DNA of 38,026 bases, from NCBI GenBank assembly GCA_022568195.1, contig JADFFS010000016.1, forward strand, positions 1-38,026. The letters run 5' to 3'. The notes under the pieces were generated by a model, which saw only the letters and a program-made list of their open reading frames with translations, ran no database searches and was not told where the DNA came from. Below are positions 31,965 to 32,402 of the stretch, piece by piece (the first letter of the stretch is position 1; the number at the start of each line of letters is the position of its first letter). The stretch is from Chloroflexota bacterium. Lineage in GTDB: Bacteria; Chloroflexota; Dehalococcoidia; Lucifugimonadales; UBA3495. The position numbers were made by a program, and so were the translations under genes.

Positions 31965-32402
31965 TTAGCGGTGAGGTTCGGCGTGGGCCACCAGGTCCAC
32001 GGTGGTATCAGCGGTCGCCACGGCGACCGATCCGTAGAGGGGTCAACGCCGTTTCCACGTTTCCACCAGTTGGTGGGCTTGGTCGTCGTCCACGCCCCAC
32101 ATCTCGAAGTTGACCCGGATGGCGTCATACAGGGAGAGCTCTCCTGGGACCTTGTCGGGGTCCCGCCACGATTCCACACTGACGTCCATCCATTCCAGGG
32201 TAATCTGGTCATCTTGGGCTATTCTTTCCACCATATTCACCGCGCAGGCCGCGATGCCGGAAAGGAAGAGCTCACCCGAAAACACCGCATCCCCACCTGT
32301 TCCGTCGGACACCCAATGGTGGGTGCGAGCGTTGCATATAGCGCGTCCCAAGGTCCCGGTGCTGTAGCTTCGGGCTTTGTAAGCCAGAGTCAATTCTGCC
32401 AT
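31965..32402 (-). CDS. OsmC-family protein, candidate selenoprotein (Sec120)
   Basis: Track ORF ends ...HQLVETWKRR at TGA 32045..32043. Same frame continues PLYGSVAVATADTTVDLVAHAEPHR to TAA at 31967..31965, matching the OsmC C-terminal Cys-Pro block with Sec for Cys. First Cys in SGIAACAVNM. Confidence 0.85.
32012..32029 (-). promoter_or_regulatory. putative bacterial SECIS hairpin (OsmC gene)
   Basis: mRNA CGGTCGC-CGTG-GCGACCG, perfect 7-bp stem, loop CGUG starts 20 nt after the TGA. Confidence 0.72.

Follow-up and report, generated by a model that had tools for sequence, protein, structure and literature searches.

Results and Discussion

An OsmC Gene Interrupted by TGA

The window, i.e. 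the whole stretch of 38,026 nucleotides analysed here, derives from a marine, SAR202-type Chloroflexota. Its minus strand carries an OsmC-family open reading frame (ORF) that looks cut off by an in-frame TGA. The frame opens with ATG at positions 32402–32400, next to a ribosome-binding-site-like AAGGAGG (32409–32415, minus strand), and runs into its first in-frame TGA at 32045–32043. Past this codon the same frame reads PLYGSVAVATADTTVDLVAHAEPHR and closes with TAA at 31967–31965. An earlier note on this DNA had described the same TGA followed by the same open frame, and our reading of the ORF agrees: 119 residues, a predicted selenocysteine (Sec, U120), and 25 further residues make up a read-through product of 145 amino acids (31965–32402, minus strand). 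The C-terminal extension and its TAA occupy positions 31965–32042.

A RidA-like gene (Ribonuc_L-PSP, 32468–32980, minus strand) lies 65 nt directly upstream, and a homologue of it occupies the upstream position in 12 of the 56 compared loci. A Na/H exchanger downstream and LON-domain neighbours are also found repeatedly, but only in some of the loci. No functional link emerged from any of these three neighbours in the compared loci. Elsewhere in the window, positions 33890–35974 of the plus strand encode QueC, a radical SAM protein (best match QueE, below the cut-off), and a 145-residue ORF (35537–35974) that matches no Pfam or NCBIfam model.

Fold and Active-Site Residues

The truncated ORF matches Pfam OsmC (PF02566, gathering cut-off 27.5 bits) with 38.9 bits, and the read-through product with 46.1 bits. 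The extension completes the OsmC fold; the earlier note had taken it to supply the missing C-terminal block. Profile and fold searches of the PDB retrieved Ohr/OsmC chains, with Ohr/OsmC proteins as the best fold matches, and in an AlphaFold2 model (mean pLDDT 81.7) the extension provides the last helix and the last β-strand of the fold. Score, fold, and the presence of two active-site cysteines, one of which may be Sec, place the protein in the OsmC/Ohr superfamily.

In alignments to Ohr/OsmC structures, C53 (codon TGC, 32244–32246, minus strand) corresponds to the first Cys, the peroxidatic one, and residue 120 to the second Cys, of the CP type. Among 39 aligned members, C53, R20, R26, H29, and E44 are invariant throughout, position 120 is always Sec or Cys, and the surroundings of Cys53 (GELF-SGI-ACAVNM) do not vary. 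The catalytic Glu of Ohr aligns with G43, and the invariant E44 sits one residue beyond; the equivalence of R20 to the Ohr Arg is unsure. In Xylella Ohr, Cys61 attacks the peroxide and Cys125 resolves (PMC5962072). The assignment of U to the conserved C-terminal CP cysteine therefore stands on the structural alignments, but its description as the catalytic residue must be narrowed: Sec does replace an active-site Cys, yet it is the second one, which is resolving in Ohr, and not the peroxidatic Cys. Similarly, a standard gene caller would indeed lose U120 and the 25-residue extension, but the Cys at the peroxidatic position is encoded upstream of the TGA and would be retained.

Conservation of the TGA Codon

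Using the read-through protein as query, we searched 197 genomes of the same family and order and found a homologue in 56 of them, with 36–84% identity outside the genome of origin. All 56 contain exactly one in-frame TGA inside the match, and in every one of the 41 homologues inspected residue by residue this TGA falls on the same codon. The block around the site in these 41 proteins reads [K/R]-x-[R/H/K]-U-P-[L/I]-Y-(G)-(S/T/A)-V-A-V-A-T. Among the homologues, K-R-[U]-P-L-Y-G-S-V-A-V-A-T is near-invariant and UP[LI]Y(G/R/K)[ST/A]VAVAT is invariant or nearly so. In the homologue alignment, mismatch frequencies at the three codon positions after the TGA (0.20, 0.17, and 0.41) are coding-like. 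The periodicity persists further 3′, past the hairpin described below (0.38, 0.38, and 0.55), and is gone after the final stop (0.744 at each position). With a TGA in 56 of 56 homologues and codon-periodic conservation up to the second stop, the proposed extension is supported by its relatives well past what chance would give.

A scan of a public genome collection returned 55 loci, many from genomes already in the 197-genome set. The codon at the site is TGA in 50 of these loci and a Cys codon in four; the remaining one (L124) ends before the site. The 50 TGA loci come from SAR202/Dehalococcoidia, from Alphaproteobacteria/Rhodospirillaceae metagenome-assembled genomes (MAGs), from a Thermomicrobiales MAG (L126), and from a Rokubacteria MAG (L127); every named carrier genome is a MAG. 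Searches of viral contigs found no relatives of the OsmC selenoprotein, and searches of plasmids gave two weak partial matches only.

The four homologues with TGT or TGC in place of TGA are L089 and L090 from Acidobacteriota MAGs and L087 from a MAG labelled Aminicenantes (sequence of these three, ARCPLYGTVAAAT), and L125 from a Polyangiaceae MAG (sequence RRCPLYGAVAVA). In a tree, Sec-type sequences surround the acidobacterial Cys clade, and therefore Sec was probably exchanged for Cys in this clade. Since the genomes that carry the Cys form also contain SelB, the choice between Cys and Sec is a gene-level difference and does not reflect loss of the machinery. The acidobacterial Cys proteins read VAAAT for VAVAT and their genes no longer have the GU of the hairpin loop; in L125 the stem is gone. 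An in-frame UGA within conserved coding sequence and Cys homologues aligned at that UGA, two of the features by which a bacterial selenoprotein gene is recognised, are thus both present.

A Covarying Hairpin 3′ of the TGA

Bacterial SECIS elements are hairpins located about 15–40 nt 3′ of the UGA with a G(U) in the apical loop. The perfect hairpin CGGTCGC-CGTG-GCGACCG that the earlier note had pointed out is found at 32029–32012 (minus strand), with 20 nt from the TGA to the loop. Its conserved helix is GGTCGC/GCGACC, in which 32028–32023 pair with 32018–32013. The stability of the single sequence is only a little better than that of shuffles (z = −1.0 for the 39-nt stretch from the TGA; z = −2.9 for the 20-nt hairpin taken alone), and therefore the case must rest on comparison.

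We aligned the hairpin from 51 distinct sequences of the Sec type. Among these, the outer helix pair is G-C in 41, A-U in eight, C-G in one, and U-A in one; the fourth pair is C-G in 43 and U-A in eight; the positions flanking the loop are C-G in 41, G-C in six, A-U in three, and mismatched in one. Two-sided covariation thus occurs at three of seven helix pairs, all at wobble positions. The exchanges are confined to synonymous third codon positions, except in L042, where the 5′ base of the outer pair is part of a serine codon (AGT). Compensatory two-sided changes occupy 27 cells, compared to 3.9 in shuffles (0/500), with 99.7% paired, and registers slid along the alignment contain at most two such cells. 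The middle two loop bases are GU in all 51 sequences. The outer loop bases 32022/32019 (columns 24/27 of SECIS alignment A3) also covary, as C-G, G-C, or A-U around this GU, and may thus pair or otherwise interact to close a two-base loop.

In distance and loop sequence, the hairpin at 32012–32029 conforms to the bacterial pattern. As judged from sequence, it is a bacterial SECIS-like element, and we predict that it binds SelB. Rfam model SECIS_1 had no match in the genome, but as this model recognised 0 of 14 controls as well, the result carries no weight either way; an Rfam search of the window also returned no match.

Selenocysteine Machinery

The genome of origin (G000, 3.74 Mb, 90% complete) encodes a tRNA-Sec with anticodon tca (SelC) along with SelA, SelB, and SelD, with profile scores of 458, 349, and 372 bits, respectively. 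SelD (G000:C68:6280-7194, L142) is itself Sec-containing: its gene has an in-frame TGA close to the start of the protein (HTAG-U-AGK, N-terminal), followed by a hairpin. SelA is found in 54 of the 56 carrier genomes, and the two without it are 87% and 78% complete. With 168 of the 197 genomes encoding it, SelA is close to universal in the order, and a correlation between presence of the OsmC gene and the Sec machinery is accordingly weak.

How the TGA Is Read

We can dismiss the idea that the TGA is a true stop, left by a recent nonsense mutation or an assembly error in a 119-residue OsmC without its C-terminus: the truncated ORF does match Pfam OsmC by itself, but the TGA is common to all 56 relatives, single-contig genomes among them, coding conservation runs on to the second stop, other phyla have Cys at the same codon, and the hairpin covaries at synonymous positions. 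It is just as improbable that the codon is read as another amino acid, either through a general reassignment of TGA to Trp or Gly or through near-cognate read-through. The frame would be open whichever residue is inserted, but the site exchanges with TGT and TGC Cys codons, the genome encodes the full Sec machinery, and a SECIS-like hairpin follows the TGA. Furthermore, four members of the family (L031, L035, L096, and L104) terminate at a TGA that is necessarily a stop.

The UGA is therefore almost certainly recoded in a protein of the OsmC/Ohr type, with Sec as the predicted residue. This was the central proposal of the earlier note, and it is upheld by the read-through score, the position of U at the CP cysteine, the Cys homologues, the covarying hairpin, and the Sec machinery. 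In this process, the genome's own SelA, SelB, SelD, and tRNA-Sec would decode the UGA, and the hairpin approximately 14–30 nt downstream, with the loop GU typical of bacterial SECIS elements, would direct the insertion.

Comparison with Known OsmC Selenoproteins and Ohr

The literature contains one OsmC-like selenoprotein, characterised by the motif UxxT (Zhang et al. 2005, PMC1088965; GOS 2008, PMC2398784; PMC9312934; PMC13188914). A 2026 inventory lists 119 prokaryotic selenoprotein (sub)families, treats different Sec positions as separate subfamilies, and has UxxT as its only OsmC entry (PMC13188914). Within the order studied here, members of NF041052 (OsmC-related (seleno)protein) have Sec at the first Cys, in the motifs U-LLT or U-EMT, from which we infer that NF041052 corresponds to the UxxT family of these papers. 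The UPLY protein, as we call the product of the gene described here, shares with this family the OsmC fold, a Sec in the active-site pair, a downstream SECIS, and an origin in marine bacteria. However, NF041052/UxxT proteins have Sec at the first Cys (..GF-U-LLT or F-U-EMT) and keep the C-terminal Cys, whereas the UPLY protein keeps the first Cys and has Sec at the second. With a Cys in the first place and a score of 21.2 bits, far under the cut-off of 95, it is not a member of NF041052; the link that the earlier note had drawn to OsmC-like selenoproteins from marine metagenomes thus fails as an identity.

The same genome contains a separate NF041052 paralogue (G000:C288:2368-2778, L141; 139 bits) with one TGA and Sec at the first Cys (ILF-U-EMTQ). 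Two other NF041052 matches, G037:C42:7964-8377 and G079:C3:4035-4451, contain two in-frame TGAs each. A further set of OsmC-domain ORFs (L134–L139, from G070, G103, G053, G059, G050, and G055 of the same order) resembles the UPLY gene in having an in-frame TGA and a downstream hairpin. These proteins contain the motif LG[TSA]-U-T; Sec takes the place of the first Cys, and the C-terminal CP(V/I) block is intact. L134 scores 54.8 bits against NF041052 (cut-off 95), and the sequences of this set perhaps represent a further unlisted subfamily.

Ohr and the UPLY protein have in common the fold, two active-site residues at the same places, and the profile match to Ohr chains in the PDB. They differ in the second residue, which is Cys in Ohr and Sec here, and in the catalytic Glu of Ohr, which finds no exact counterpart. 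The Ohr equivalog model (TIGR03561) excludes the UPLY protein, with 19.6 bits against a cut-off of 88.85.

A Possible Peroxidase

What reaction may this protein catalyse? By analogy to Ohr, the 145-residue product would be a thiol peroxidase-like protein in which Cys53 and Sec120 form a redox pair. One of the two, Cys53 if the order of Ohr applies, would reduce an organic hydroperoxide and become oxidised. The partner would then resolve the oxidised residue to form an intramolecular selenenylsulfide, which a reductant would reduce again. In Ohr this reductant is a lipoylated protein, and by analogy a similar partner may serve here. We consider a peroxidase role reasonably likely. As to the attacking residue, position would favour C53 and reactivity U120; it could be either. 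Because the Glu of Ohr aligns with G43 instead of E44, we regard Ohr-like chemistry as a likely analogy, not as demonstrated membership.

Of the competing explanations, one deserves serious thought, even if it seems to us the less probable: Sec is inserted, but the roles are unlike those in Ohr. Sec120 might attack the peroxide with Cys53 resolving the selenenic acid, or the protein might act as a thiol/disulfide reductase or as a selenium/sulfur carrier. The inexact alignment of the Ohr Glu and the score far under the Ohr cut-off speak for this option, as does the fact that Sec is the attacking nucleophile in many selenoproteins. On the other hand, the invariance of GELF-SGI-ACAVNM and of R20, E44, and C53 is what one would expect of an Ohr-like peroxidatic site.

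Significance

The UPLY protein very probably represents an undescribed subfamily of OsmC selenoproteins, in which Sec takes the place of the resolving residue in a peroxidase of the Ohr type. The subfamily is widespread in SAR202/Dehalococcoidia, and some MAGs of Alphaproteobacteria, Thermomicrobiales, and Rokubacteria also carry it. Relative to the 2026 inventory (PMC13188914), this Sec position is new to the OsmC fold, as judged against the published literature. Our literature search found no paper that mentions SAR202 and selenoproteins together. Throughout the group, standard gene callers would truncate the UPLY OsmC and lose one of the two active-site residues.

If our reading is correct, paralogues with Sec at the peroxidatic or at the resolving position would coexist in one genome and provide a natural test of the role of selenium at each half of the reaction. 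The long-standing question as to which side of a redox pair Sec should occupy would become testable within a single fold. The finding also suggests that SAR202, an abundant lineage of the deep ocean, has a redox system rich in selenium.
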